Of a stretch of 45,129 nt of DNA, positions 1,010 through 34,637 are shown piece after piece. A program made the position numbers and the translations under genes. The stretch is from contig DVKX01000037.1 in NCBI GenBank assembly GCA_018715805.1, positions 1 through 45,129 on the forward strand, written 5' to 3'. Below the pieces are notes generated by a model. That model searched no databases. It was not told the DNA's origin and worked only from the letters and a program-made list of their open reading frames with translations. The first letter of the stretch is position 1. Each line of letters starts with the position of its first letter. Source of the DNA: Candidatus Faecousia intestinigallinarum (lineage in GTDB: Bacteria; Bacillota; Clostridia; Oscillospirales; Oscillospiraceae).

Positions 1010-2230
1010 TTAGATGATGTTCAGGTTTACGTTGGGGAAGTTCTCAGCAACCAGACCGTTCTCGTAGTCGGCATCCACAGTGACGGTGCCGTCCTTCAGA
1101 GAGGCGAACAGGGCATTGTAATCTTCCACAGTGAAGTTCTCCATCATCCAGGTGTCGGTGGGCAGACCCACGGCGTCCATGGAAGCGCCCATGGTCACAT
1201 AAGTGCCGCCGACGCTGTCCCAATCACCGGAGAAGTACAGGTCGCAGGCATACATAACAGCTTCCCGCAGACCCTTGGTGGCGGAGGTCAGCACGGTGTC
1301 GGACTGAGAGGACTGATCCACGTCCACGCCGATGACGTAACCGTCATTGGCAGCGGCAGCAGCAAAGGCGTTCTGGCAGATAGAACCGCCGCAGGAGAAG
1401 ATGATCTCCGTACCGGAGGTGTACCAGCCGTCCAGCATGGTCTGCAGGTCGGGAGACGGAGTGAAGTTGGCGCCATACTCCCAGGTGTAGTTCATGTCCA
1501 CGGTGATGCCCAGCTCCGCAGCGGCGTCATTGGCGCCCTGGAGGTAGCCGTAGCCGAAACGGCAGCAGGGAGGATTGATGCCGCCGCCACCGCCGGAGAA
1601 GCCCAGCTTGGTGAAGCCTTCCTTCACAGCGGCGTAGCCGGCCAGGTAGCCGGACTGCTCTTCCTGGAAGTTGATGGACAGCACATTGGGCAGGCCGTCG
1701 CTGGCATTATCGATGAAGACGAACTTCACATCGGGGAAATCGGTGGCGGCCTTGGTCAGCGCGGTTTCCTGCAGGAAGCCGGCGGCAACCACGATCTGCG
1801 CGCCGCCGTCCACAGCGGCCTTCATGGCGTCGTAGCGGTCATCGTCGGTAGCGGCGTTGCCGTTAGCGGGCTGATAGTACTTGTAGCTCTTGCCGTTCTC
1901 GTAGGCATAGCGCTTCACGCCTTCCCAGGAGCCCTGGTTGAAGGACTTGTCCTTCAGCTGACCCACGTCGGTGACGAAAGCGATGTCGTAAGTGGTAGAC
2001 TCCATGGTGTCGGGGATGGCGTCGTAGTCGTAGGCCTCCGCGGCAGGCTCAGTAGCGGGCTCCGTGGCCGGCTCGGTAGCAGGATCCGTGTCCGCAGGCT
2101 CGGTGGCGGGAGTAGATCCCGTGGGGGTGCTGGCGGGATCGGTATCGTCAGGCGTCTCCGTAGGAGCGCAGCCGGCAAATACACCGCAGACCATAACGAC
2201 AGCCAGCAGAAGTGCCAGAATCTTCTTCAT
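1010..2230 (-). CDS. BMP family (PnrA-like) nucleoside-binding lipoprotein
   Basis: The protein is 406 residues. A type II signal peptide ends in the lipobox FAGC near residues 18-21, so it should be a lipid-anchored extracellular protein. An acidic, low-complexity Thr/Pro/Ala/Glu linker (repeated ATEP units) follows to about residue 65. The rest is the BMP/PnrA substrate-binding domain, beginning YDIAFVTDVGQLKDKSFNQGSWEG, a segment typical of the family. BMP proteins bind purine nucleosides or related ligands for an ABC importer, which fits the neighbouring deo/cdd/tdk genes. No ATPase or permease partner follows; the downstream sequence is hairpins and the MATE fragment. The start has GGAGG about 8 bases upstream. 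It is separated from cdd by 168 bases, so it probably has its own promoter. Nucleoside specificity is inference from family and context. Confidence 0.9.
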   Translation of the reverse strand: MKKILALLLAVVMVCGVFAGCAPTETPDDTDPASTPTGSTPATEPADTDPATEPATEPATEPAAEAYDYDAIPDTMESTTYDIAFVTDVGQLKDKSFNQGSWEGVKRYAYENGKSYKYYQPANGNAATDDDRYDAMKAAVDGGAQIVVAAGFLQETALTKAATDFPDVKFVFIDNASDGLPNVLSINFQEEQSGYLAGYAAVKEGFTKLGFSGGGGGINPPCCRFGYGYLQGANDAAAELGITVDMNYTWEYGANFTPSPDLQTMLDGWYTSGTEIIFSCGGSICQNAFAAAAANDGYVIGVDVDQSSQSDTVLTSATKGLREAVMYACDLYFSGDWDSVGGTYVTMGASMDAVGLPTDTWMMENFTVEDYNALFASLKDGTVTVDADYENGLVAENFPNVNLNII

Positions 2231-2398
2231 TTTTCAAACCTCCATATGTAGATTTTCAAATTTTGGTATTCCTCAAATACCGCTTGTATTGTCGCACATT
2301 TTTCAGGAAAAATCAACAGGAATTCTATGATTTTATAAAATTTAACAGCTATGCCACAATTTGTCCATTTCTGCTGACAAAATCACCCAAAAATAAAC

Positions 2399-2806
2399 TC
2401 ATTTCATGTGGGTCTTGGCAGAAAAGCTATAGGGCAGCACCTCCGCCAAGGTATGCGCCTCGTAGCCGTCCGCCGTGACGAAGTAGAGGATAAAATCATC
2501 CTCGCAGAATTCCCGCATCACCTGGCGGCACACGCCGCAGGGGGGGAATGCGCCGGTGATGACGCCGTCCCTGCCGCCGCATATAGCGATGGCGGTGAAA
2601 TCCCGACGGCCATCGTACACCGCTTTGAAGAAGGCGGTGCGCTCGGCGCAGACCGTAGGGCTGAAGGAGGCGTTTTCAATATTGCAGCCCTGGTATACCG
2701 TACCGTCGGCGCACAGCAGCGCCGCGCCTACCTTATAGCCGGAATAGGGGACATAAGCGTGCCCCATGGCCTCCACAGCCAGCTTGCACAATTCCTTAGG
2801 TTCCAT
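2399..2806 (-). CDS. cdd: Cytidine deaminase
   Basis: A 135-residue homotetrameric-type cytidine deaminase, which hydrolyses cytidine and deoxycytidine to uridine and deoxyuridine in the cytoplasm. The active-site motif CAE lies at residues 53-55, with Glu55 as proton shuttle. The other two zinc ligands are in PPCGVCRQV (Cys90, Cys93). The substrate-binding GCNIENASF segment is at 40-48 and YVPYSGYKVGAAL is at 18-30. Length is normal for the family. AAGGAGG sits 6 bases before the ATG. It lies 35 bases after deoB and is probably the last gene of the tdk-deo operon. No clear terminator follows the stop. Confidence 0.95.
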   Translation of the reverse strand: MEPKELCKLAVEAMGHAYVPYSGYKVGAALLCADGTVYQGCNIENASFSPTVCAERTAFFKAVYDGRRDFTAIAICGGRDGVITGAFPPCGVCRQVMREFCEDDFILYFVTADGYEAHTLAEVLPYSFSAKTHMK

Positions 2807-2841
2807 CCAGATCCTCCTTATTCCCGGGATCGCCCCGGCGT

Positions 2842-4005
2842 TTACACGATCTCCTTCAGAAAGCTCTTTCCCGGGGTATCCAGGGAAACCCCCAGCGCTT
2901 CCGCCACGGTGGCGGCAATGTCGGCAAAGCTGCCGCGCTGCCCCAGATCCCGGGGCTTCACCCCTTTGCCCGCCACGATCAGGGGCACATACTCCCGGGT
3001 GTGGTCGGTGGTGGCCAGATAGGAAGGATCGCAGCCGTGGTCAGCGGTGATCATCACCAGGTCGTCCTCTCCCAGCCGGGCGAGAAAACCCGGCAGCCAG
3101 GCGTCGAACTCCGTCAGCGCCCGGGCGTAGCCGTCCACATCCCGGCGGTGGCCGTAGAGCATATCAAAGTCCACCAGGTTCACGAAGCACAGCCCGTGGA
3201 AATCCCTGCCGGCGTAGCCCAGGGTCTTCTCCAGGCCGTCGGTATTGCCCTTGGTATAGACGTGTTCCGTGGTGCCCTGTCCCGCAAAAATATCGAAGAT
3301 CTTGCCCACGGCAATGGAGTCCAGCCCAGCGTCCTTTATGGCGTCCAGCAGGGTGGGTCTGGGCGGCTCCAGGGAATAGTCATGGCGGTTGGGAGTGCGG
3401 GTATAATGACCGGAAGTGCCCACAAAGGGTCGGGCAATGACCCGCCCTACGCTGTGCTTGCCCCGCAGCTGGGCGCGGGCAATGTGGCAGTATTCATACA
3501 GGGTTTCCAGAGGCACCACATCTTCATGGGCGGCGATTTGGAATACCGAATCCGCCGAGGTATATACGATCAGATCCCCGGTGGCGCAGTGTTCATCCCC
3601 ATATTTCTGAATGACCTCCGTCCCCGACCAGGGGGCGTTGGCCAGAATGCCCCGGCCGGTGGCCTCCCGGAAGGGCTGGAGCACCTCCTCCGGGAAACCG
3701 TTGGGATAGGTGGGCAGGGGATCGGGGGAAACCAGTCCTGCGATTTCCCAGTGGCCAATGGTGGTGTCCTTGCCCATGGAGGCCTCCGCCAGCCGGGCAT
3801 ATGCCCCGGCGGGCGCGTCCGTATGACGCAGATAATCCACCCCTTGGATGTTGCCCAGACCCAGCTTTTCCAGGTTGGGCAGGGACAGGCAGGGAGAGCC
3901 GGCGCAGGCGCGGAGGGTATTCACCCCCACGTCGCCGAAGGATTCTGCGTCCGGCATGGCGCCGATGCCGCAGGAATCCAATACAATCAGAAAAATACGT
4001 TTCAT
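2842..4005 (-). CDS. deoB: Phosphopentomutase
   Basis: The protein is 387 residues, the usual length for DeoB, a member of the alkaline phosphatase-like metalloenzymes. It interconverts (deoxy)ribose 1-phosphate and 5-phosphate, linking nucleoside phosphorylase to deoxyribose-phosphate aldolase. It starts with the metal-binding segment FLIVLDSCGIGAMPDA and carries DTTIGHWEIAG near residue 79, which holds the phosphorylated Thr. Further metal-site motifs are LVDFDMLYGHRRD and MITADHGCDPS. GAGGAGGG lies 7 bases before the ATG. It sits between the small membrane protein gene (13 bases upstream) and cdd. Confidence 0.97.
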   Translation of the reverse strand: MKRIFLIVLDSCGIGAMPDAESFGDVGVNTLRACAGSPCLSLPNLEKLGLGNIQGVDYLRHTDAPAGAYARLAEASMGKDTTIGHWEIAGLVSPDPLPTYPNGFPEEVLQPFREATGRGILANAPWSGTEVIQKYGDEHCATGDLIVYTSADSVFQIAAHEDVVPLETLYEYCHIARAQLRGKHSVGRVIARPFVGTSGHYTRTPNRHDYSLEPPRPTLLDAIKDAGLDSIAVGKIFDIFAGQGTTEHVYTKGNTDGLEKTLGYAGRDFHGLCFVNLVDFDMLYGHRRDVDGYARALTEFDAWLPGFLARLGEDDLVMITADHGCDPSYLATTDHTREYVPLIVAGKGVKPRDLGQRGSFADIAATVAEALGVSLDTPGKSFLKEIV

Positions 4006-22643: not shown

Positions 22644-23072
22644 ATGTCTCAGATTATTCGCGACATCACCGAAATTTCCCGCTGCGGCGCGCAGTATCAG
22701 GCGGAAACCTTTGCCGATATGGGGCTGAAATCCTGCCATGCCAGCTATCTGCTGGAGATCTGCGCCCATCCGGGCATATCTCAGGATCAGCTGGCCAGCC
22801 GCATTTGCTTCAATAAGAGCAACATTGCCCGGCAGGCTGCCGCGCTGGAGGAAAACGGACTGCTCCGCCGGGTGCCCTCGCTGGAGGACAAGCGGGTGCT
22901 GGAGCTTTACCCCACCCAGAAAGCGCTGGAGCTGCTGCCCCAGATCACTGCCCGCCTGGGGCAGTGGGAGGCGCTGCTTACCCAGGACATCACCGAAGAG
23001 GAGACTGCCGCGCTGGAAGCGCTGCTGCTGCGGATGCGCGCCCGGGCAGCCGCCTGGATGGAGGCGCATTGA
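22644..23072 (+). CDS. MarR family transcriptional regulator
   Basis: A 142-residue winged-helix regulator. The HTH lies at about residues 45-70 (ISQDQLASRICFNKSNIARQAAALEENGLL), followed by the wing RVPSLEDKRVLELYPTQKA with the DxR motif typical of MarR. The flanking helices form the dimer interface. AAGGAGG is 9 bases before the ATG. It is the first gene of an operon with two ABC half-transporters and sits right behind a palindrome over its own -10, so it probably represses the operon until an effector (likely an exported compound) binds. The ligand is unknown. Confidence 0.93.
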   Translation: MSQIIRDITEISRCGAQYQAETFADMGLKSCHASYLLEICAHPGISQDQLASRICFNKSNIARQAAALEENGLLRRVPSLEDKRVLELYPTQKALELLPQITARLGQWEALLTQDITEEETAALEALLLRMRARAAAWMEAH

Positions 23073-23073
23073 T

Positions 23074-24795
23074 TTGAAGCAGCTGAACCGCTATATCCGC
23101 CCCTATTATGGCTATATCGCCCTGGCCGTGTTCATCAAGCTGGTGGGCGCGGTGCTGGAACTGTTTATCCCCTATCTTATGGAGCAGATGCTGGATGTGC
23201 AGGTGCCCGCCGGGGACTTGACCGGCATCTATCTCTTTGGCGCGGGCATGATTCTGTGCGCTGCGGGCTGCTTGGCGGCCAATATCTGGGCAAACCGCAT
23301 GAGCGCCGTCAGCTCCGGCAAGATCACCCTGGCGATCCGCCATGATCTGTTTGAAAAGCTCCAGAGCCTTTCCGCCCGGCAGATGGATACGCTCACCATA
23401 TCCTCCGCCGAGTCCCGGCTTACCAGCGACACCTATAATATCAACCAGCTGCTGGCGCGGGTACAGCGGCTGGGAATCCGCGCGCCCATCCTGCTGCTGG
23501 GCGGCGTGACCATGATGCTGGGCATGGACGCACCACTGGCGCTGGTGCTCATCGCCATGCTGCCCATTATCGCTGTGGTGGTGTATTTTGTCACCAAGAC
23601 CAGCGTCCCGCTGTATACCAAGCAGCAGGGCGTGCTGGACAAGGTGGTGCGTACCGTGCAGGAGAACATCACCGGCATCCGGGTCATCAAGGCGCTGAGC
23701 AAGACGGACTATGAGAAAGACCGCTTCCGCCGGGTGAACCAGGAGCTTACCGCTGTGGACGAGAAAGCGGGTGTTATCACCTCCATCACCAACCCCACCT
23801 CCACGCTGGTGCTGAATCTGGGACTGACGCTGGTGGTGGTGGCAGGCGCGTTCCGCGTGAACGGCGGCGGCTGCCAGAGCGGCGTGATCGTGGCCTTTCT
23901 GCAGTACTTCACCATGATCCTCAACGCTATGCTGGGCATTACCCGAATCTTCGTCATGTATTCCAAGGGAGAGGCCAGCGCCAAGCGGGTGGCCAATGCT
24001 CTGGCCATGCCCGCCGACCTCACGGTGCTGGCGGAAAAGGCACCGCCGGCGGAAAATGCGCCCCATATTGCGTTTCAGAACGTCACGTTCTCCTATACCG
24101 GCCGGGGCAACAACCTGGAAAATCTCAGCTTCTCCCTCCAGCACGGCCAGTGCCTGGGGATCTTGGGTCCCACCGGCTCGGGGAAATCCACCATTTTGAA
24201 CCTGCTGCTGCGGCTCTATGATCCGGACTCCGGCGTGGTGGCCATCGACGGCAGGGACATCCGCACCATCCCCCGGGAGGAATTGCAAAAGAAATTCGGC
24301 GTAGTGTTCCAAAATGATTTTGTAGCCCAGGGTACCATTGGGGAGAATCTCCGCTTTTTCCGGGAGCTGGACGACGCCGCCATCGCCCGGGCGGCGGGGA
24401 ATGCCCAGGCGGACTTTATCACAGAGAAGCCCGGCGGCATGGACGCGCCGGTTACCGTCCGGGGCAACAATCTCTCCGGCGGCCAGAAGCAGCGGCTGCT
24501 CATCGGCCGGGCGCTGGCGGGAGATCCGGAGATACTGGTGCTGGACGATGCTTCCTCCGCCCTGGATTACCGCACAGACGCCAATCTGCGCCATGCCCTG
24601 GCCAGGAACTATGCCCGTACCACCACGGTGATCGTGGCGCAGCGGGTCAGTTCTCTGCGCCATGCCGACCTGATATTGGTGCTGGATGACGGCCGGGTCA
24701 TCGGCATGGGCAGCCATGGGCAGCTGATGGAGGATTGCCCGGAGTACCGCGCCATTGCCAACGCCCAGATGGGCGAAGGAAAGGAGGCGGTATAA
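23074..24795 (+). CDS. ABC exporter half-transporter with degenerate ATPase
   Basis: A 573-residue half-transporter starting at TTG (23074), one base after the marR stop, with GGAGG 9 bases upstream. No nearby ATG fits the conserved N-terminus LKQLNRYIRPYYGYIALAVFIK. Six membrane helices precede the ATPase domain (from about 335). Motifs are Walker A GPTGSGKSTI, signature LSGGQKQRLLIGRAL and Walker B ILVLDDASSALD, where Asp replaces the catalytic Glu. The switch motif reads VIVAQRVSS, with Gln replacing His. Both changes predict a non-hydrolysing own ATP site, while its intact LSGGQ serves the partner's site. It is followed directly by the partner gene; the stop TAA and next ATG are adjacent. 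Confidence 0.94.
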   Translation: MKQLNRYIRPYYGYIALAVFIKLVGAVLELFIPYLMEQMLDVQVPAGDLTGIYLFGAGMILCAAGCLAANIWANRMSAVSSGKITLAIRHDLFEKLQSLSARQMDTLTISSAESRLTSDTYNINQLLARVQRLGIRAPILLLGGVTMMLGMDAPLALVLIAMLPIIAVVVYFVTKTSVPLYTKQQGVLDKVVRTVQENITGIRVIKALSKTDYEKDRFRRVNQELTAVDEKAGVITSITNPTSTLVLNLGLTLVVVAGAFRVNGGGCQSGVIVAFLQYFTMILNAMLGITRIFVMYSKGEASAKRVANALAMPADLTVLAEKAPPAENAPHIAFQNVTFSYTGRGNNLENLSFSLQHGQCLGILGPTGSGKSTILNLLLRLYDPDSGVVAIDGRDIRTIPREELQKKFGVVFQNDFVAQGTIGENLRFFRELDDAAIARAAGNAQADFITEKPGGMDAPVTVRGNNLSGGQKQRLLIGRALAGDPEILVLDDASSALDYRTDANLRHALARNYARTTTVIVAQRVSSLRHADLILVLDDGRVIGMGSHGQLMEDCPEYRAIANAQMGEGKEAV

Positions 24796-26631
24796 ATGGC
24801 CAATCCCAATCTCATCGGCGGCGGCCGTCTGACCCGCGCCGAGACCAGCGGCGATCACCGGCACTTCGATGGAAAGCGGCTGAATATGCCCGCTCTGCTG
24901 AAGCGCCTGTGGCAGTATCTTGGCCGCAACCGCCTGCTGCTCCTGCTGGCTTTCGCGCTGTCCGTGGCATCCAGCTGGCTGGCGCTGTACGGACCAAAGC
25001 TTTCCGGCCAGGCCATCAATGCCATCGACCTGGGGGCGGGGCGGGTGGATTTCCCCACGGTATTCGGCTGCGCCGTATGGATGACGGTATTTTACCTGCT
25101 TTCCGGCGTCATGACGTATCTATTGAACGTGGTGATGATACGGCTGTCCCGGACGGTATCCCGGCAGATGCGCCGCGATATTTTTGAGAACCTCACCGCT
25201 CTGCCTGTGGGCTTCTTCGACCGGTATCAGACCGGCGATATTATCAGTACCATCACCTACGATGTGGATACGGTGAATCAGTCCATGTCTGCGGATCTGC
25301 TGCAAATTTTGCAGAGCGCCGTCACCGTGCTGGTGAGCTTCGTGATGATGCTCACCATTGCGCCGCAGCTGGTGGTGATCTTCCTGGTGACCATCCCCGC
25401 CACCATTTTCTTCACCCGCTGGCTTACCCGCCGGGTGCGGCCGTTGTTCCGCCGCCGGAGCGCCAAACTGGGGGAGCTGAACGGCTTCGTGGAGGAGATG
25501 CTCTCCGGGCAGAAGACCGTTCGCGCCTATGGCCGGGAGCAGGCCGTGCTGGAGCGCTTTGACCACAAGAACCGGGAGGCGGTGGACGCCTATACCGTGG
25601 CGGAGGCCAACGGCACTATCACCGGCCCCTCGGTGAACTTCATCAACAACGTGTCCCTGGCGCTGGTGTGCCTGCTGGGCAGCGTGCTTTTTCTCCAGGG
25701 GCAGATCCGCCTGGGAGACTTGAGCAGCTTTGTCCAGTATTCCCGGAAGTTTTCCGGCCCCATCAACGAGGTGGCCAACATCATTGCGGAGCTGCAAAGC
25801 GCCTTTGCCGCTGCGGAGCGGGTATTTGCCCTCATCGATGCGGAGCCGGAGCCTGCGGACAGCCCCGACGCCCGGGAACTGACGCAGGTGGCCGGGGACG
25901 TGCGGCTGGAGGATGTGGATTTTTCCTATGTCCCCGGCAAGGAGATCATCACCGGTCTGAGCCTGCATGCCAAGCCCGGCAGCCTCACCGCCATTGTGGG
26001 TCCCACCGGGGCGGGGAAGACCACCATCATCAATCTGCTCATGCGCTTCTACGATGTGGACGGGGGCTGTATCTATGTGGATGAACAGGCGGTTCCTACT
26101 CTGACCCGAGCCTCCCTGCGGCGGGCGTATACCATGGTGCTCCAGGACACCTGGCTGTTCCACGGCACCATTTTCGACAACATCGCCTACGGAAAGCCCG
26201 GCGCTACCATGGAGGAGGTGGTGGCCGCCGCCAAGGCCGCCCACATCCACAGCTATATTTCCCGCCTGCCCCAGGGGTACGACACCGTGCTTTCGGACAA
26301 CGGTTCTTCCATCTCCAAGGGGCAGAAGCAGCTCCTTACCATTGCCCGCGCCATGCTTTTGGACGCCCATATGCTGATCCTGGACGAAGCCACCTCCAAC
26401 GTGGATACGCGCACCGAGGAACAGATCCAGCTGGCCATGCGGGAGCTGATGGCGGGCAAGACCTGCTTCGTCATTGCCCACCGGCTCTCCACCATCCGCT
26501 CGGCGGATCACATCCTGGTGCTGAACCAGGGCAAGGTGGTGGAGCAGGGCACCCACGAGAGCCTGATGGCGCAAAAGGGCTTCTACCACGATTTGTACCA
26601 GGCGCAGTTCGACACCGCCCTGGCAGAGTGA
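24796..26631 (+). CDS. ABC exporter half-transporter with consensus ATPase
   Basis: A 611-residue half-transporter. A 40-residue polar N-terminus (GGGRLTRAETSGDHRHFDGKR) precedes six membrane helices, then the ATPase domain from about 370. Motifs are Walker A GPTGAGKTTI, signature ISKGQKQLLTIARAM (degenerate from LSGGQ), Walker B MLILDEATSNVD with the catalytic Glu, and switch His in VIAHRLST. It complements the preceding subunit exactly: its own Walker motifs pair with the partner's LSGGQ to make the single active site. AAGGAGG is 6 bases before the ATG. It is the last gene of the marR operon; a strong terminator follows. Confidence 0.94.
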   Translation: MANPNLIGGGRLTRAETSGDHRHFDGKRLNMPALLKRLWQYLGRNRLLLLLAFALSVASSWLALYGPKLSGQAINAIDLGAGRVDFPTVFGCAVWMTVFYLLSGVMTYLLNVVMIRLSRTVSRQMRRDIFENLTALPVGFFDRYQTGDIISTITYDVDTVNQSMSADLLQILQSAVTVLVSFVMMLTIAPQLVVIFLVTIPATIFFTRWLTRRVRPLFRRRSAKLGELNGFVEEMLSGQKTVRAYGREQAVLERFDHKNREAVDAYTVAEANGTITGPSVNFINNVSLALVCLLGSVLFLQGQIRLGDLSSFVQYSRKFSGPINEVANIIAELQSAFAAAERVFALIDAEPEPADSPDARELTQVAGDVRLEDVDFSYVPGKEIITGLSLHAKPGSLTAIVGPTGAGKTTIINLLMRFYDVDGGCIYVDEQAVPTLTRASLRRAYTMVLQDTWLFHGTIFDNIAYGKPGATMEEVVAAAKAAHIHSYISRLPQGYDTVLSDNGSSISKGQKQLLTIARAMLLDAHMLILDEATSNVDTRTEEQIQLAMRELMAGKTCFVIAHRLSTIRSADHILVLNQGKVVEQGTHESLMAQKGFYHDLYQAQFDTALAE

Positions 26632-26690: not shown

Positions 26691-27344
26691 TTATGCCTGA
26701 AAACGGTTGAAATAGTCGTACAGAGGAATGAGGCCGGTGAAAAATTCCCGCGCCTGCACCGCCAGCTCCGGCGTGAACAGGGCGTCGCCGGGCGCGATCT
26801 CCCGAATGCAGGAGATGTCGCTCCTCCAGGCGAAGTAGGGAGCCAGGCGCGGATCCGGACAGGGCTTCGGCTTTTTATACTGCTGCGCCGTGACGGGCAT
26901 ACCCACAGCTTTTTCTGTCCGCGCGATCAGGTCAAGAAATTCCTCCGGACGGGCGGCGATGTCCTGCCGGAACGCCTCCAGCCGCGGCACCCGCGGACGC
27001 CAGAAGAAAAAGCCGTAGCTGACGCCCTCCGGACGGATCTCAAAGAACAGGCAGGGATTTTCCGCCCACCACTCCACATCCCGGCGGATGCAGATCCACA
27101 GACTCTCCTTATAGGGCTCGGGCGGATGCATCCGGGCGTCGCGGTAGATGCGGCTGACCTTCAGCAGATTGCCCGGCTTGTCCAGGAACGGAAGGAACAG
27201 TTCCCGCCCCAATGCTTTCATTGGCTCGTAGAGGCGGGTGATATAGTCCTGTTTGTGGGATTGGAACCAATCCCGGTTATTATTCAGTCGAATCCCCCAG
27301 AGGAAATCAAAGGTTTCCGGGGAAAAGCCAGTAAATTCTGCCAT
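26691..27344 (-). CDS. DUF2461 family protein
   Basis: A 217-residue cytoplasmic protein of the DUF2461/TIGR02453 family, whose function is not established. Recognisable segments are FSPETFDFLWGIRLNNNRDWFQSHKQDY near the N-terminus, SRIYRDARMHPPEPYKESLWI around 70-90, and PCLFFEIRPEGVSYGFFFWRP around 105-125. The ATG at 27344 is chosen because homology begins there; the ribosome site is weak (GAGAG). It is 10 bases after the metallophosphoesterase gene and probably the third gene of the operon that starts with the ParB-like/BMP fusion. Confidence 0.88.
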   Translation of the reverse strand: MAEFTGFSPETFDFLWGIRLNNNRDWFQSHKQDYITRLYEPMKALGRELFLPFLDKPGNLLKVSRIYRDARMHPPEPYKESLWICIRRDVEWWAENPCLFFEIRPEGVSYGFFFWRPRVPRLEAFRQDIAARPEEFLDLIARTEKAVGMPVTAQQYKKPKPCPDPRLAPYFAWRSDISCIREIAPGDALFTPELAVQAREFFTGLIPLYDYFNRFQA

Positions 27345-27354
27345 GGTGATTCTC

Positions 27355-28020
27355 TCAATCTTCCTCCTGCTTGGGAGGTTTGTTTTTCCAAAGAAGCTGC
27401 CCCCGCTCCTTTTCCGGGATCTCCCGGTCGGGGATTTCCAGGGTATAGCGCTGGACGACATTGATGATCTGGGTGCTGCCGTAGGCTCGCTCCCGGAGCT
27501 GGCTCCCGCCGTAGCGCGGGTGCACATGGCCGTGGAGGAGATACTGGGGATTATACTTATCCAATAATTCCAGCAGCGCCTGAAAGCCCCAGTGCGCCGG
27601 GTCGTCCGCATCTCCGATTCCCCGGGGAGGCGCGTGGGTCACCACAATGTCCACGCCCTTGCTCCGCCACAGCGCCCACCTCAGCCGGCGGATGCGCCGG
27701 CGCATCTGCCGCTCGGTATATTGGTGGGCGCCGGGATGATATTTCCGGCAGCCGCCCAGCCCCAGGATCCGCAGGCCGTTGTAGACCACCAGCCGGTCGT
27801 CGATGCAGTCGCAGCCCTCCGGCGGGGACTGCCGGTAGCAGCCGTCGTGGTTGCCGTGGACGTAAAGCACCGGGCAGCGCGCCATAGTCACCAGGAAAGA
27901 CAGATACTCCGCCTGTAAATCTCCGCTGGAAAGGATCAGGTCATATTCCCGGAGCCGTCCGGGAACGTAGTAGTCCCATAGCCCCGCGCATTCTTCGTCG
28001 GCCACCGCCAGGATCTTCAC
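27355..28020 (-). CDS. Calcineurin-like metallophosphoesterase
   Basis: A 221-residue cytoplasmic phosphoesterase. Metal-binding motifs are GDLQAE (33-38), GNHD (56-59), the His of VTHAPPRG near 133, and GHVHPRYGG near 165. The usual first motif, DxH, reads ADEEC (Asp8-Glu9-Glu10), so one metal ligand His is absent. I recall similar ADEE-type sequences in other clostridial members of this family, so this is probably a subfamily trait. The ATG overlaps the stop of the upstream ParB-like/BMP fusion gene by 4 bases, showing tight coupling. Substrate unknown: nucleotide, phosphodiester and protein substrates are all possible. Confidence 0.9.
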   Translation of the reverse strand: MKILAVADEECAGLWDYYVPGRLREYDLILSSGDLQAEYLSFLVTMARCPVLYVHGNHDGCYRQSPPEGCDCIDDRLVVYNGLRILGLGGCRKYHPGAHQYTERQMRRRIRRLRWALWRSKGVDIVVTHAPPRGIGDADDPAHWGFQALLELLDKYNPQYLLHGHVHPRYGGSQLRERAYGSTQIINVVQRYTLEIPDREIPEKERGQLLWKNKPPKQEED

Positions 28021-29969
28021 AGAAGTCCCTCCTCTTTCTCTTTGGGTACGCGATCGCGATGTACGCCCAGCTCCCGAACCAGCGCCTGGGACATGGGCAG
28101 AACTTCCTCGAACTCTGGGATGCGCCCCTCTACGTTTTCACACAGCCAGTCCATCCGCAGAATGGCGTCCGGCGTCAGGCTGCGTTCGCCTTCGTTTTTC
28201 ACCGAACCGTCCTGGGCTACGATGTACCGGCGGAAAGGATCCAGCAGTCCCATCTGCAGCCCCTTGCGCAGCATCTCCGCCAGGGCGGCCACGCCGTTGG
28301 GCAGGGTCTTGGCCAGACGCACGTCGATAACGCTGCTGTTCAGCCCCCACCAGTAGTTCACGGCCTTTGGCTCGCCCTTGTTCTCCCACGCGCCGGAGAG
28401 GATGGAGCGCACCACGTTCTCGTAGAACCGACCCCATTGGTAGCAGGGAGACGCCAGGGGCGTGAGCTTGCCGCTGTCCTCCACCAGATAGGTGCCGTAC
28501 TCTCCGCCGTGGAGGTAGAAGCTGCCGGGGGTGGGAATATCCCGGTTGGAGATCACGCGGATACCCTTGTCGATAAATTCCTGGGTGGGATTGCCCGGCT
28601 GGCAGGACCAGCGCAGTTCCACCTTTACCCGGGGATTGGTCATCTGCGCCCCCAGAGCAAAGGCGTTAATGGAGGCGGGCACGCCCAAAATAGGGTAGGA
28701 GCCAACATAGCCGACGCGGTCGGTTTTGGCGATGGCGCCGGCGATGGCGCCGGTGATGAATTTTCCTTCAAATTCCCGGCAATAGTAGCTGCGCACGCTG
28801 GAAAACGGGGTATCCGCCGAGCAGTTCAGAAAGCGCACCTTGGGATATTTCACGGCGGCCTTGAGGGTGGCGCGGCTCAGCTGGGGGGTGGTGGTGAAGA
28901 CCACCTGGGCGCCCTCCAGCACGGCCAGATCCAGCAGTTCCTCCGCCTGCTCCTGGGTATCCGCGTCGAAATAGCTGCGCACCGTCACCCGGCCGGGGAG
29001 CACCTGCTCCAGATGGATGCGGCCGTCGTCGTGTCCCTTGGTCCAGACGCTGCTGGAGGGATTGCGCTGGTGGATAAAGGCCACCTCCAGGTGGTCGGGC
29101 ACCGAGGAAATGAGCCGCCCAAGCACACCCTTGCCCTGCTCCGACGGCTCGGTGAGCACTTTCACCGGCTCCTCCTGGGACATAGTCACCAGATCGTCCC
29201 ACAGCCCGGAGAGCAGCTTTTTCAGCTCCCCGCCGGACAGCCGCCCCAGATCCCGGAAAGGGTACACCTCCAAAAAGAGCAGCAGGGCGTCCTCCGGGCG
29301 CATATCCAGTTCATCGCCCCCCTGGGCGAAAAAGGCTTCCTTAAAATATTGGAAATAGGCGGTGAAGGTCTTCTTCTCCCGATCCGTCCACTCCTCGCCC
29401 GGCTCCTTGCCCAGAGAGGCCAGCAGCTTGGCATAGTCCCCTGGGCGGCGGAACTGAACCTCATAGATGCCCGCGCTTTTATAGAACTCCAGGAATTCAT
29501 AGTATGCCCGGATCCTTGGCTCCTGGCTAGGGGCGGGCAGGATGCGGTGCACCACGCTGGGGATCCGGGCGGCGCCGAAGTATTTCAGCACGCTCAGGCG
29601 CTTGTTGCCCTCCTGCACGTAGAAATTGCCCAGGTATTCAAAGCAAAGGATGGGATCGCGAATACCCTCGGACAGGTGCGCGGCGCACAGATTCACCCAC
29701 TTGGCGGCGAACTCGCTGTCCGCCTCCAGCAGCGGCAGGAATCCCTGGGTAAACGCGGAAATGCGCCCCCGGGACTTGATGCCCACGATCTGCTCCACAG
29801 GGATCTCCGTCAGGGGAACGATCTGGACGCTCTCCTGGGACGTATCCCCCAGGATTTCGTCCAGTACCACGGGATAGGGGTCTTTGCCCGCCATGCTCCG
29901 CTCTTTATATTCTTTTTGGCCTAAACGCAGTGCGCGGGTGTATTCCTCTTTTGCTTCCTGCAGGTACAT
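28017..29969 (-). CDS. Cytoplasmic ParB-like / BMP-domain fusion protein
   Basis: A 650-residue protein with no signal peptide, lipobox or membrane helix. Residues about 45-145 resemble a ParB/sulfiredoxin-type domain (IVPLTEIPVEQIVGIKSRGR, then FYVQEGNKRLSVLKYFGA). A charged helical region follows to about 285. From about 290 comes a BMP/PnrA ligand-binding domain (LEVAFIHQRNPSSSVWTKGHDDGR, VRFLNCSADTPFSSVRSYYCREFEGKFITGAIAGAIAKTDRVGYVGSYPILGVPASINAFALGA). BMP domains normally sit outside the cell and bind nucleosides, so an intracellular one points to sensing of a small ligand; that is inference. AAGGAG is 8 bases before the ATG. It is first in a three-gene operon with a metallophosphoesterase (4-base overlap) and a DUF2461 gene. 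Similar proteins occur in other Clostridia, as I recall, usually annotated only as BMP transporters. Confidence 0.85.
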   Translation of the reverse strand: MYLQEAKEEYTRALRLGQKEYKERSMAGKDPYPVVLDEILGDTSQESVQIVPLTEIPVEQIVGIKSRGRISAFTQGFLPLLEADSEFAAKWVNLCAAHLSEGIRDPILCFEYLGNFYVQEGNKRLSVLKYFGAARIPSVVHRILPAPSQEPRIRAYYEFLEFYKSAGIYEVQFRRPGDYAKLLASLGKEPGEEWTDREKKTFTAYFQYFKEAFFAQGGDELDMRPEDALLLFLEVYPFRDLGRLSGGELKKLLSGLWDDLVTMSQEEPVKVLTEPSEQGKGVLGRLISSVPDHLEVAFIHQRNPSSSVWTKGHDDGRIHLEQVLPGRVTVRSYFDADTQEQAEELLDLAVLEGAQVVFTTTPQLSRATLKAAVKYPKVRFLNCSADTPFSSVRSYYCREFEGKFITGAIAGAIAKTDRVGYVGSYPILGVPASINAFALGAQMTNPRVKVELRWSCQPGNPTQEFIDKGIRVISNRDIPTPGSFYLHGGEYGTYLVEDSGKLTPLASPCYQWGRFYENVVRSILSGAWENKGEPKAVNYWWGLNSSVIDVRLAKTLPNGVAALAEMLRKGLQMGLLDPFRRYIVAQDGSVKNEGERSLTPDAILRMDWLCENVEGRIPEFEEVLPMSQALVRELGVHRDRVPKEKEEGLL

Positions 29970-30009
29970 AGGCGCATCTCCTTTGCGTTATTGGTTGGAT
30001 ACTACCTTT

Positions 30010-30038
30010 ATCATAGCGGCTTTTCCACGGTTTTGCAA
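30010..30038 (-). promoter_or_regulatory. Promoter of the ParB-like/BMP fusion operon
   Basis: On the minus strand TTGCAA (30033-30038) and TATGAT (30010-30015) are 17 bases apart, 41 bases before the start codon at 29969. It has the same -35 variant as the tdk and rimP promoters. Confidence 0.7.
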
Positions 30039-30041
30039 CCC

Positions 30042-30077
30042 AAAAATAACCCCGGGAGAAACTTTTCTCCCGAGGTT
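30042..30077 (-). terminator. Terminator after the Nudix gene
   Basis: A 13-bp stem pairs 30048-30060 with 30065-30077; its one C/A position is a G-U pair in minus-strand RNA. Downstream on the minus strand is TTATTTTTGG. It lies about 70 bases past the Nudix stop codon and just upstream of the promoter of the next operon. Confidence 0.75.
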
Positions 30078-32297: not shown

Positions 32298-33626
32298 ATG
32301 GCGTTTTCCTTTTTCGGCGGGATCCATCCCAAAGAAAACAAATGGTATGCGGAGGAGGAACGGGTGCAGTCCTTCCCGGAGCCGGATGTGCTGGTGATTC
32401 CCATGCAGCAGCATATCGGCGCCGCCTGCCAGCCGCTGGTGAAAAAGGGCGACTACGTGACCATGGGGCAAAAGATCGGCGACGGACAGGGGCTTTGCGT
32501 GCCGGTGCACGCCAGCGTCTCCGGCACGGTAAAAGCGGTGGAGATGAAACCCCATTCCAGCGGCATGACGGTCATGAGCGTGGTGATCCAGAACGATCAC
32601 CAGGATGCCCTGTGTCCGGATATTCAGCCCCGGGACGCGGTGGCGGTGGCAAAGCTCACCGCGCAGGAACTGATGGATGTTATCCGGGAGGCGGGCATTG
32701 TGGGCATGGGCGGCGCTACTTTCCCCACCCATGTGAAGCTCAGCTCCGGCATCGGCAAGGTGGATACCGCCATTGTGAACGTATCCGAGTGCGAGCCATA
32801 TATTGTGGCGGACGACCGGGTGTGCCGGGAATACCCCCAGGAGGTGCTGTCCGGTCTGCGGGTCATTATGCGGATATTGGATCTGCGGAAAGCCCATATC
32901 GCCATTGAGGACAATAAGAAGGCGGCGGCGGAGGCGCTGCGGCGGAACATCGATCCCCGCTCCGGCGTGGTGCTGGATGTGCTGCCTGCCAAATACCCCC
33001 AGGGTGCGGAGAAGCAGCTGATACAGGCCATTACCGGGCGGCAGGTGCCTTCCGGCGCGCTGCCTGCGGCGGTGGGCTGTGCGGTGTTCAACGCCGCCAC
33101 CTGCAAGGCCGTCCACGACGCGGTGTACAATGGAATGCCGCTGATCCGCCGGATCGTCACCGTATCCGGGGATATTGTGATGCAGCCCATGAACCTGCTG
33201 GTACCCATCGGCACCAGCTTTAACGACCTTTTAGACGCGGTGGGACACAGCGAAAATCCGTATAAGGTGCTCTCCGGCGGCCCCATGATGGGCGTCGCGC
33301 AGTTTGATCTCAGCGTACCCATTACCAAGGGCACCAACGCCGTGACCATTCTGGGACATAAAAACCGTTTTGCGGTGGACAATCCCCACTGCATCCGCTG
33401 CGGCAAATGTATGGAGGCGTGCCCCATGCGCCTGACGCCCCTGCTGATGTATCAGGCGGAGCGGAACGGGGATCTGACGGAATTGAAGAAGCTCCATCTG
33501 ATGGACTGCATGGAGTGCGGCTGCTGCGCGTATATCTGCCCAGGCACGCTCCCCCTGGTGCAGTCCTTCCGGGCGGGCAAGCAGCGCCTGCGGGACGCGG
33601 CTGCCCGGCAGGCGGCCAAGGCGTAA
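32298..33626 (+). CDS. rnfC: Rnf complex subunit C (RnfC)
   Basis: A 442-residue peripheral subunit of the ferredoxin:NAD+ oxidoreductase (Rnf) complex, where NAD is reduced. It has an N-terminal barrel-sandwich domain (GACQPLVKKGDYVTMGQKIG), the FMN/NADH-binding core (IVGMGGATFPTHVK, ECEPYIVADDRV) and a SLBB region (VLSGGPMMGV). Two 4Fe-4S motifs, CIRCGKCMEACPM and CMECGCCAYICPG, follow at about residues 365-425. The start follows GAGAGGTG. It is first in the order rnfCDGEAB, which is the usual clostridial order. Confidence 0.96.
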   Translation: MAFSFFGGIHPKENKWYAEEERVQSFPEPDVLVIPMQQHIGAACQPLVKKGDYVTMGQKIGDGQGLCVPVHASVSGTVKAVEMKPHSSGMTVMSVVIQNDHQDALCPDIQPRDAVAVAKLTAQELMDVIREAGIVGMGGATFPTHVKLSSGIGKVDTAIVNVSECEPYIVADDRVCREYPQEVLSGLRVIMRILDLRKAHIAIEDNKKAAAEALRRNIDPRSGVVLDVLPAKYPQGAEKQLIQAITGRQVPSGALPAAVGCAVFNAATCKAVHDAVYNGMPLIRRIVTVSGDIVMQPMNLLVPIGTSFNDLLDAVGHSENPYKVLSGGPMMGVAQFDLSVPITKGTNAVTILGHKNRFAVDNPHCIRCGKCMEACPMRLTPLLMYQAERNGDLTELKKLHLMDCMECGCCAYICPGTLPLVQSFRAGKQRLRDAAARQAAKA

Positions 33627-33638
33627 GGAGGCGGAAAT

Positions 33639-34637
33639 ATGGCACCCATGAAATACTTCTATGAATTGACCATTTCCAGCTCCCCCCATGCCCACAGCCC
33701 TGTGACCACCCGCACCATCATGCGGGATGTGCTCATCGCTCTGCTGCCGGCGCTGGTGGGAAGCGTATACTTCTTCGGGTTCCGGGCACTGATGGTGACG
33801 CTGGTTTCGGCGGCGGCCTGCGTGTTCTTCGAGTGGGGCTACCGGAAGCTGATGCATCTGGACTCTACGGTATACGATATGTCCGCCGTGGTCACGGGAG
33901 TGCTGCTGGCCTTTGTGTGCCCGGTGACCATTCCCTACTGGTGCATTCTCATCGGCGACTTTTTCGCCATTGTCATTGTGAAGCAGCTTTTCGGCGGCAT
34001 CGGCAAGAACTTCGTGAACCCTGCGCTGGCGGCGCGGGCGTTCCTGTTCAGCTGGCCCGTGGTGATGAACACCTGGGTCAAGGTGGGCTTTGAAAACGCC
34101 GCCGGCGTACTGGACACGGCGGATGTGGTCACAGCGGCCACCCCCTTATCGGCTATGCACCAGGGGGCGATGCCCACGGATTCTCTGCTGAATATGTTTC
34201 TGGGGAATGTGGGCGGCTGCTTGGGGGAGACTTCCACGCTGCTGCTCCTGCTGGGCGCTGCCTATCTGCTGCTGCGGCGGGTGATCTCTGCCCGGATTCC
34301 CTTGGCGTTTGTGGGCACGGTGGCCTTGATTGCGGTGCTGTTCCCCCAGGGCAACGATCCTCTGGCCTGGATGGGCGCGCAGGTATGCGCCGGCGGCGTG
34401 ATGCTGGGAGCGTTCTTTATGGCTACCGACTATGTGACCAGCCCCGTGACCAAATGGGGGCAGGTGATCTTCGGCATGGGCTGCGGCGCGCTGACCATGG
34501 TGATCCGCTATTTCGGCGGGTACAACGAGGGCGTCAGCTACGCGATCCTGGTGATGAACGCCTGCGTGGTGCTGCTGGATAAGGTGGGTCTGCCGAAAAA
34601 ATACGGCGCTGTGGTGAAGGAGGGGACGAAAGCATGA
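33639..34637 (+). CDS. rnfD: Rnf complex subunit D (RnfD)
   Basis: A 332-residue membrane subunit with about nine helices, homologous to NqrB. It begins with the typical SSSPHAHSPVTTRTIMRDVLIALLPAL. The flavinylation motif around residues 165-168 (TAATPL) carries Thr168, to which FMN is attached by a phosphodiester bond in the family; the usual SGAT appears here as TAAT. GKNFVNPALAARAFLFSWP is the other conserved segment. It is 12 bases after rnfC and overlaps rnfG by 4 bases. Confidence 0.95.
   Translation: MAPMKYFYELTISSSPHAHSPVTTRTIMRDVLIALLPALVGSVYFFGFRALMVTLVSAAACVFFEWGYRKLMHLDSTVYDMSAVVTGVLLAFVCPVTIPYWCILIGDFFAIVIVKQLFGGIGKNFVNPALAARAFLFSWPVVMNTWVKVGFENAAGVLDTADVVTAATPLSAMHQGAMPTDSLLNMFLGNVGGCLGETSTLLLLLGAAYLLLRRVISARIPLAFVGTVALIAVLFPQGNDPLAWMGAQVCAGGVMLGAFFMATDYVTSPVTKWGQVIFGMGCGALTMVIRYFGGYNEGVSYAILVMNACVVLLDKVGLPKKYGAVVKEGTKA

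Follow-up and report, generated by a model that had tools for sequence, protein, structure and literature searches.

A BMP-type receptor fused to a probable ParB-like domain is conserved together with a metallophosphoesterase in Clostridia

The window described here, i.e., the whole stretch of DNA that was analysed, comprises 45,129 nucleotides (positions 1 to 45,129, forward strand, of contig DVKX01000037.1, assembly GCA_018715805.1) from Candidatus Faecousia intestinigallinarum, a member of the Oscillospiraceae (Bacillota; Clostridia; Oscillospirales). Three of its genes, which follow one another on the same strand, encode a 650-residue protein that joins a BMP ligand-binding domain to a probable ParB-like domain (hereafter, the fusion), a metallophosphoesterase (MPE) and a DUF2461 protein (Table 1). 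The coordinates, lengths and gene order given in a preliminary description of the locus agree with the positions of the open reading frames (ORFs), and so does the overlap between the fusion stop and the MPE start that was noticed at that time. Ten bases separate the MPE stop from the DUF2461 start, and the chosen start of the fusion agrees with an AAAGGAG sequence 8 bases upstream and with a promoter-like site. As a hairpin and this promoter-like site, both of them pattern matches only, separate the fusion from the NUDIX gene that precedes it, transcription may start at the fusion, which is present as one copy in the host assembly (2.09 Mb, 99 contigs). The fusion and the MPE form a conserved pair, and this pair occurs in numerous Clostridia, of which a good many come from animal guts.

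Table 1. Genes, domains and sequence signals of the fusion locus (positions in the window).
Feature	Position	Strand	Basis and remarks
Fusion, 650 amino acids	28017..29969	-	ORF; AlphaFold2 model; relatives in 62/150 family genomes
Metallophosphoesterase (MPE), 221 amino acids, GTG start	27355..28020	-	PF00149
DUF2461 gene, 217 amino acids	26691..27344	-	PF09365; lineage-restricted neighbour
GTGA stop/start overlap, fusion stop with MPE start	28017..28020	-	ORF coordinates
ParB/sulfiredoxin-like domain (probable), residues ~48-146, estimated boundaries	29532..29828	-	Fold matches, profile alignment, secondary structure
Box I-like loop GIRDPI, residues 102-107	29649..29666	-	Conservation; aligned to ParB GIxQP loop
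Box II-like P motif EGNKR (GxxR), residues 120-124	29598..29612	-	Invariance in fusions
Helical linker, residues 147-285	29115..29531	-	Net acidic, weakly conserved; secondary structure
BMP/PBP1 ligand-binding domain, residues ~291-620	28110..29099	-	PF02608; 3s99 and 6pi5 by sequence and fold
Sigma-70-like promoter TTGCAA-17-TATGAT, 5′ of fusion	30010..30038	-	Pattern scan, 1 found vs 0.1 in shuffles
Terminator-like hairpin, gap between upstream NUDIX gene and fusion	30048..30077	-	Pattern scan, 13 pairs then ATTTTT

The association between both genes was followed in three samples of genomes. In the family sample (150 genomes), in which the full-length fusion loci number 47 for clade 1 (identity 35-57%) and 16 for clade 2 (27-30%), both genes are found in 62 genomes, the fusion only in none, the MPE only in one (G046) and neither of them in 87 (Fisher, 6e-42, relatedness ignored). 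The 62 include 15 genomes with only a clade-2 fusion and the MPE elsewhere, G109, with the MPE on the same contig but ~180 kb away, and G106, which was counted on a contig-end fusion fragment (residues 9-184); three of the genomes lacking the pair have a low completeness (G040, 85%; G133, 73%; G142, 67%). The class sample (291 genomes) gave 26 genomes with both genes, one with the fusion only (G637, whose fusion runs into a contig end), three with the MPE only (G618, G745 and G769) and 261 with neither. Among the 398 genomes of the phylum sample, which held few genomes of the window's own class, full-length fusions were observed in five only, all of that class, and the other matches were to BMP only.

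The MPE is the next gene downstream in 45 of the 47 clade-1 loci of the family, and in 34 of these 45 linked loci the genes share a 4-base overlap (starts chosen by script). Additionally, in a set of named loci, the best 80 of at least 585 stretches with relatives and, thus, the closest relatives, 75 have an MPE on the same strand, and 72 of these MPEs start no more than 57 bases from the end of the fusion match; among the other five, L172 is cut off at a contig end, and there is space for the gene in L119, L141, L154 and L168. The pair is also kept in other arrangements. For instance, of the 26 genomes of the class sample that have both (window included), 12 have the genes in tandem, 13 have them as convergent neighbours and one (G703) has them unlinked; the convergent arrangements may trace to one inversion. 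In the family, the clade-2 MPEs are unlinked to their fusions; in a tree of 63 MPEs, 15 of clade 2 split from 45 of clade 1 with 100/100 support, and genome G033 encodes a clade-1 and a clade-2 fusion together with a single MPE of either type. Comparison by eye within genera showed, among the matches listed (outside which are 24 genomes with no match in the fusion search and 67 in the MPE search), that the two genes vary in concert within nine genera, and that in one (G046/G134) the variation concerns the fusion alone. The matched pairs in G033 and these concordant differences are not predicted by shared descent alone. That the fusion and the MPE do one job together is the strongest inference that we draw.

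Relatives of the fusion are also found under viral names. An unannotated human-fecal record called 'Bacteriophage sp.' (MT836456.1, positions 1636-3534) encodes a near full-length fusion (97% of the query, 38% identity), and BFVD, a viral fold library, includes a fragment labelled Podoviridae sp. ctC2p8. These are possibly bacterial DNA in viral bins. A phage origin of the fusion was considered and rejected, as a pattern-based scan of IMG/VR gave three loci, all of them with BMP only.

The C-terminal half of the fusion is a BMP domain, as had been described. PF02608 matches residues 305-454 of the window protein (E-value 1.4e-17; 64.1 bits against a cut-off of 24.1) and is matched in all members of the fusion alignment, which holds 61 of the 63 full-length fusions (L051 and L087 were left out) and from which a subset of 47 was taken for some analyses. 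The relatives of this half in the PDB are AtzT (6pi5) and a Brucella basic membrane lipoprotein (3s99), with E-values of ~1e-35 by sequence over residues 288-619 and ~1e-63 by profile, and both are described as purine-base-binding substrate-binding proteins (SBPs) of the BMP family (PMC6834077). Structure prediction leads to the same proteins: the AlphaFold2 model of the fusion, built from 61 aligned members of the family, has a mean pLDDT (per-residue confidence) of 92.3 and a pTM (global confidence) of 0.89, and Foldseek again puts AtzT and 3s99 first for the receptor, above the nucleoside-binding PnrA group. The preliminary description had pointed to nucleosides as the usual ligands of BMP domains, which is not supported as such for the fusion: the nearest solved relatives bind guanine or adenine, and most of their contacts with the base are replaced in the fusions.

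The guanine bound by AtzT is stacked between Tyr45 and Trp194, and its other contacts are Ser97, the backbone of Phe98, Glu165, Asn218 and Asn220 (PMC6834077). The fusions retain an aromatic residue at the Tyr45 site (Trp in 47/47 of clade 1; Trp in 11 and Phe in 5 of the 16 of clade 2), His49 in all 63 cases and Ser97 in 25 of them, and the position of Asn220 is occupied in clade 1 by Asp (43/47), which is found in 3s99 too, or Glu (4/47). Four stand-alone BMP proteins of these loci retain the AtzT/3s99 set at positions 97, 98, 165, 194, 218 and 220, with His and Asp at the positions 218 and 220, as in 3s99. None of the 63 aligned fusions has the full AtzT-type guanine-binding site. Because Glu165 and Trp194 are lost in every one of them, the ligand has probably changed, and the fusion receptor would be a re-specified member of the purine-base subfamily; one may reasonably guess at a ligand that is larger or carries other substituents. 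As to localisation, no export signal was recognised in the fusions, in agreement with what had been noticed for the window protein: the maximum of a 19-residue Kyte-Doolittle window over the first 60 residues is 1.32 or lower in 63/63, and the same scan gives 2.0-3.0 in three stand-alone BMP proteins from the same loci. Judging from this test, which is a hydrophobicity heuristic and not a trained predictor, the fusion is likely to be cytosolic.

We consider that the N-terminal domain is probably ParB-like on the combined evidence of fold, PHROGs, profile alignment and motifs. Pfam covers none of this half in the window protein, and the fusions do not reach the cut-off of PF02195 (best E-value 0.022, in 1 of the 47 members scanned), which is exceeded by ParB proteins from 31/31 genomes of the same family. 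When the viral models of BFVD were searched by fold, 18 of the best 50 matches were named ParB, partitioning, occlusion or ParB/Srx (E-values from 1.3e-4 to 0.018), with a poor superposition (root-mean-square deviation of at least 14.9 Å and TM score to the target of at most 0.33); since these matches come with no aligned ranges, they are attributed to the N-terminal half by inference. There is no ParB chain among the 50 PDB matches listed by Foldseek for the whole fusion. In a PHROGs scan of 47 members, ParB-like families were among the commonest weak matches (best E-value 0.0039, in 6 of the 47). A profile alignment of fusion residues 40-150 with 30 ParB_N domains from the same bacterial family placed, in order, GIRDPI onto the GIxQP loop of ParB and EGNKR onto GERR, with a score of 10.4 that compares with 7.6 or less in 30 column shuffles (E-value 0.043; hhalign probability of only 0.65%).

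Conservation points to the same two elements. Residues E120, G121, K123, R124 and S126 are invariant in the 61 aligned fusions, as is G102, and I103 and P106 are at least 90% conserved. In the ParB-CTPase fold, the Box II P motif reads GxxR (PMC12704722), and both this motif and a Box I-like loop are present in the fusions in the expected order. The EGNKR motif that was originally described as conserved is so in the form EGxKR (some relatives have EGHKR), and the ParB/sulfiredoxin-like domain to which it was assigned stays probable, below the Pfam cut-off. Neither the helix-turn-helix (HTH) nor the C-terminal dimerisation Pfam domain of ParB was found among the matches of the 61 members, in which the C-terminal half is BMP. 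The linker between both halves (residues 147-285) has 19 Lys and Arg against 25 Asp and Glu residues, and its conservation is low. In the class sample, the N-terminal domain lies within a frame of 632-681 amino acids in 27 of the 28 genomes with a match; the remaining match (G674; E-value 5e-8, 375 amino acids) is apparently to another kind of ParB-like protein, and the counts do not include it. This protein (locus L232) has an EGKHR motif, and its gene adjoins one that, by eye, resembles a gene of the metallo-beta-lactamase fold. A stand-alone copy of the N-terminal domain (L049:7677-8603; 308 amino acids, with EGHKR and without BMP) was also observed, in genome G056, which encodes a full fusion as well.

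The partner is assigned by PF00149 (E-value 3.6e-11). In an alignment of 43 of the 45 linked MPEs (L052 and L087 were left out), Asp8, Asp34, Asn57, His58, Asp59, His129, His163, His165 and His167 are invariant, and the motifs GD, GNHD, H and GHxH are as in PF00149. In the window protein, D8-x-E10 replaces the first motif, DxH, and the position of this histidine is occupied by Glu in 37 of the 43 MPEs, Pro in four, Ala in one and Thr in one. The nearest solved folds are those of Dbr1 and MPPED2 (Foldseek E-values of ~5e-9, TM of ~0.6 on the query, 16-17% identity), with weak profile matches (at best 5e-4 for Dbr1 and 1.6e-5 for MPPED2) and a likeness of fold that is common to other MPEs.

Genes related to purines have been observed close to some of the fusions. 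The gene of xanthine phosphoribosyltransferase (xpt), identified by an NCBIfam equivalog for the L075 gene, with which the others cluster, is found within three genes of the fusion in 6 of the 16 clade-2 loci. It lies directly behind the fusion in L038, L045, L046 and L047, and L038, L046 and L047 have an SBP gene, the fusion and xpt in this order on one strand. Five of the six xpt-bearing clade-2 loci have BMP-type permeases nearby (L037, L038, L044, L046 and L047); counted within seven genes, these permeases are found in 5/16 clade-2 and 1/47 clade-1 loci. Of the best 80 named clade-1 loci, five carry xpt within the retrieved stretch (L107, L108, L119, L167 and L171), and in L167 and L171 it is divergent from the fusion at a distance of 0.7 kb or less. 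The rough chance expectation, which assumes one xpt per 2.4 Mb and ignores relatedness, is 0.1 for the clade-2, 0.44 for the named and 0.29 for the clade-1 family loci. In L119, from a Christensenella metagenome-assembled genome, the fusion has no adjacent MPE, and xpt is found ~1.9 kb upstream on the same strand.

The DUF2461 gene (PF09365, E-value 6.6e-35) is directly behind the MPE in 14 of the best 80 named loci, all of them within the 26 closest, and in 1 of the 47 clade-1 family loci, which is the window itself. It is, thus, a lineage-restricted addition of close relatives only, and its role as a conserved member of the pathway was rejected beyond them. Of the single pathway that the preliminary description had suggested for the three genes, the link between the fusion and the MPE is supported, and their co-occurrence survives the loss of operon structure. 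In L035, a clade-2 fusion has a DUF2461 gene at a distance of ~4 kb, on the opposite strand. The upstream NUDIX and lipid-kinase genes were rejected as partners as well, because they have no match at the 26 closest named loci (L099, L109 and L158 have fewer than 200 bases upstream) and the hairpin separates them in the window. Around the unlinked clade-2 MPEs (L188, L190, L192 and L194-L201), an alcohol-dehydrogenase-like neighbour (cluster 1) is present in 8 of 15 loci, with a similarly placed gene of 393 amino acids in three more, and an FMN-reductase-like one (cluster 2) in 8 of 15, both named by eye from sequence. Other calls made by eye in the window are two ORFs that resemble RnfC and RnfD of the Rnf electron-transport complex (32298-34637, plus strand), and a MarR-like regulator followed by two half-transporters of the ATP-binding cassette (ABC) exporter type (22644-26631, plus strand), convergent to the DUF2461 gene.

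Proteins with a BMP domain and no recognisable export signal co-occur with a protein with a phosphoesterase domain, and they do so in tandem, convergent and unlinked states. The reading that we tentatively favour, with a confidence somewhat short of even, is a two-protein cytosolic module formed by a ligand-gated, ParB-fold nucleoside triphosphate (NTP) switch and a dedicated phosphodiesterase. The receptor domain would bind a purine-derived ligand, probably not plain guanine, which is disfavoured because most guanine contacts are replaced. The N-terminal half would probably bind NTP, and ligand binding might alter how the ParB-like domain binds or hydrolyses NTP. The MPE, presumably a metal-dependent phosphodiesterase, would be controlled by the switch or, alternatively, would remove the nucleotide that the switch responds to or makes. 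Our confidence in these parts decreases in order from the cytosolic location to NTP binding, a small aromatic or purine-derived ligand, control between the halves and, finally, the MPE as output or remover of the signal.

Several observations weigh against this proposal. In the receptor, Glu165 is replaced by Gly in 46/47 clade-1 fusions (the clade-2 alignment around this position is gapped and less sure), Trp194 is absent throughout, and the position of Phe98 is occupied by Pro in 57/63, so that what points to a purine is one aromatic residue, ancestry and neighbour genes. Among these genes, the link is weak in clade 1, as xpt together with the transporter is found only in L075 of the 47 family loci; neither xpt nor BMP-type permeases were found in the 31 class stretches, and the clade-2 MPEs adjoin alcohol-dehydrogenase-like genes and no recognised purine genes. 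Control by a purine riboswitch was rejected, as no such Rfam family matched at gathering thresholds in the window and six loci. Taken by themselves, the sequence comparisons with Pfam, the PDB and PHROGs and the profile alignment lend no significant support to the assignment of the ParB-like fold. There are also MPEs without a detected fusion in G046, G745, G769 and, in the form of a more distant MPE, G618, and a strict one-to-one rule is weakened by G036, which has two fusions and one MPE, since the second clade-1 fusion (L063) has no second MPE. The ligand, NTP binding and the MPE substrate are, at this stage, predictions from sequence, and so is the ligand-gated action on a nucleotide or nucleic acid that the preliminary description had suggested.

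Other explanations have been considered. The best rival, although we regard it as rather unlikely, is a pair of kinase and phosphatase similar to those of the SerK type, in which the ParB/sulfiredoxin-like domain would be a small-molecule kinase or nucleotidyl-transfer enzyme, the receptor would present the substrate and the MPE would reverse or process the reaction. In its favour, EGNKR has the form acid-G-x-x-R, the ParB fold includes the kinases SerK and SbnI (PMC12704722), and an enzyme and its antagonist would be expected to co-occur as strictly as observed; against it, the domains are separate, and an active site shared between them is conjectural. It is also unlikely that the module is a so far undescribed purine-responsive nucleotide signalling system of Clostridia, where a ParB-fold half gated by the PBP1 domain would bind NTP and make or hold a nucleotide signal that the partner phosphodiesterase would end. 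As the hydrolase ends the signal in such a system, a receptor-synthase and its hydrolase would co-evolve as matched pairs even when unlinked. A DNA-binding regulator, i.e., a purine-gated ParB-like clamp that, like PurR, would control purine genes, seems quite unlikely to us. It would be in keeping with the Foldseek match, through the PBP1 domain, to PurR bound to hypoxanthine and operator (1pnr, E-value 4.9e-5), with the frequent vicinity of clade-2 fusions to a BMP-type transporter and xpt, and with the divergent xpt of L167 and L171. However, a PurR-like repressor is made less likely by the ParB HTH, which has no Pfam match in any of the 61 members, by the net acidic and poorly conserved region that follows the ParB-like domain, and by the near-obligate phosphoesterase, which would be left unexplained.

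That two neighbouring genes without a shared function are merely inherited together is very unlikely. Although the genes are usually adjacent and the genomes related, this is difficult to reconcile with a pair kept in unlinked and convergent arrangements, with the nine concordant within-genus differences among the matches listed and with the two fusions and two matching MPE types of G033. Finally, the fusion could be the usual kind of BMP protein that binds the substrate for an ABC transporter, with a signal peptide that escaped detection, given that it has a BMP domain and that related stand-alone BMP proteins are transport proteins. This we consider scarcely credible in view of the hydrophobic N-terminus, seen in 0/63 fusions, the structured N-terminal half of ~285 residues and the small number of loci with BMP-type permeases within seven genes.

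With respect to known systems, recent work has established the ParB fold as a general module for NTP binding, with fusions to other domains that have arisen repeatedly (PMC12704722). The fusions of the ParB-CTPase fold surveyed by Kaljevic et al. 2025 (PMC12704722) have GxxR, a Box I-like loop and a lineage-specific partner domain, as here, and the archaeal ParB-CBS fusions in that work are the nearest idea, with a partner domain that senses a ligand. As the survey recognised the fold by matches to PF02195 above the gathering cut-off, which the fusions do not reach, it would miss the family of the window, and the present work contributes a family that escapes the usual Pfam model of the ParB fold. 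The main text of PMC12704722 does not name a BMP-type or phosphoesterase partner, and the combination of ParB-like and BMP domains was not found in a literature search whose scope left out most subscription papers.

Compared with AtzT and 3s99, the receptor of the fusion has the same fold (~25% identity over 330 residues) and retains the stacking aromatic residue and His49; by contrast, those proteins are stand-alone SBPs, while the fusion has no export signal, is joined to a ParB-like domain and has lost Glu165 and Trp194. Here, a receptor of the AtzT type is apparently used inside the cell. PurR and other LacI-type proteins are intracellular purine receptors of the PBP1 fold, and the PBP1 part of the fusion matches 1pnr. 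PurR has an N-terminal HTH, whereas the fusion bears a ParB-like domain, and no HTH was detected in it. For the MPE, Dbr1, the lariat debranching enzyme, and MPPED2 are the nearest solved folds, but the low identity, the DxE form of the first metal motif and the lack of lariat-specific evidence set it apart from them. SerK and SbnI, which are kinases of free serine, have the ParB/sulfiredoxin fold that is probable for the fusion and are set apart from it, by description, by their serine acceptor. SerK presumably has an acid-G-x-x-R motif like the EGNKR of the fusion, and neither SerK nor SbnI is known to have a receptor domain. The Clostridia studied here couple a recognisable receptor for small molecules to an apparent ParB fold, together with a near-obligate phosphoesterase, which turns the control of an NTP switch by a purine ligand, and the substrate of the MPE, into directly testable questions. 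Purine receptors of the PBP1 fold and fusions of the ParB fold are each known; their combination appears to be new.

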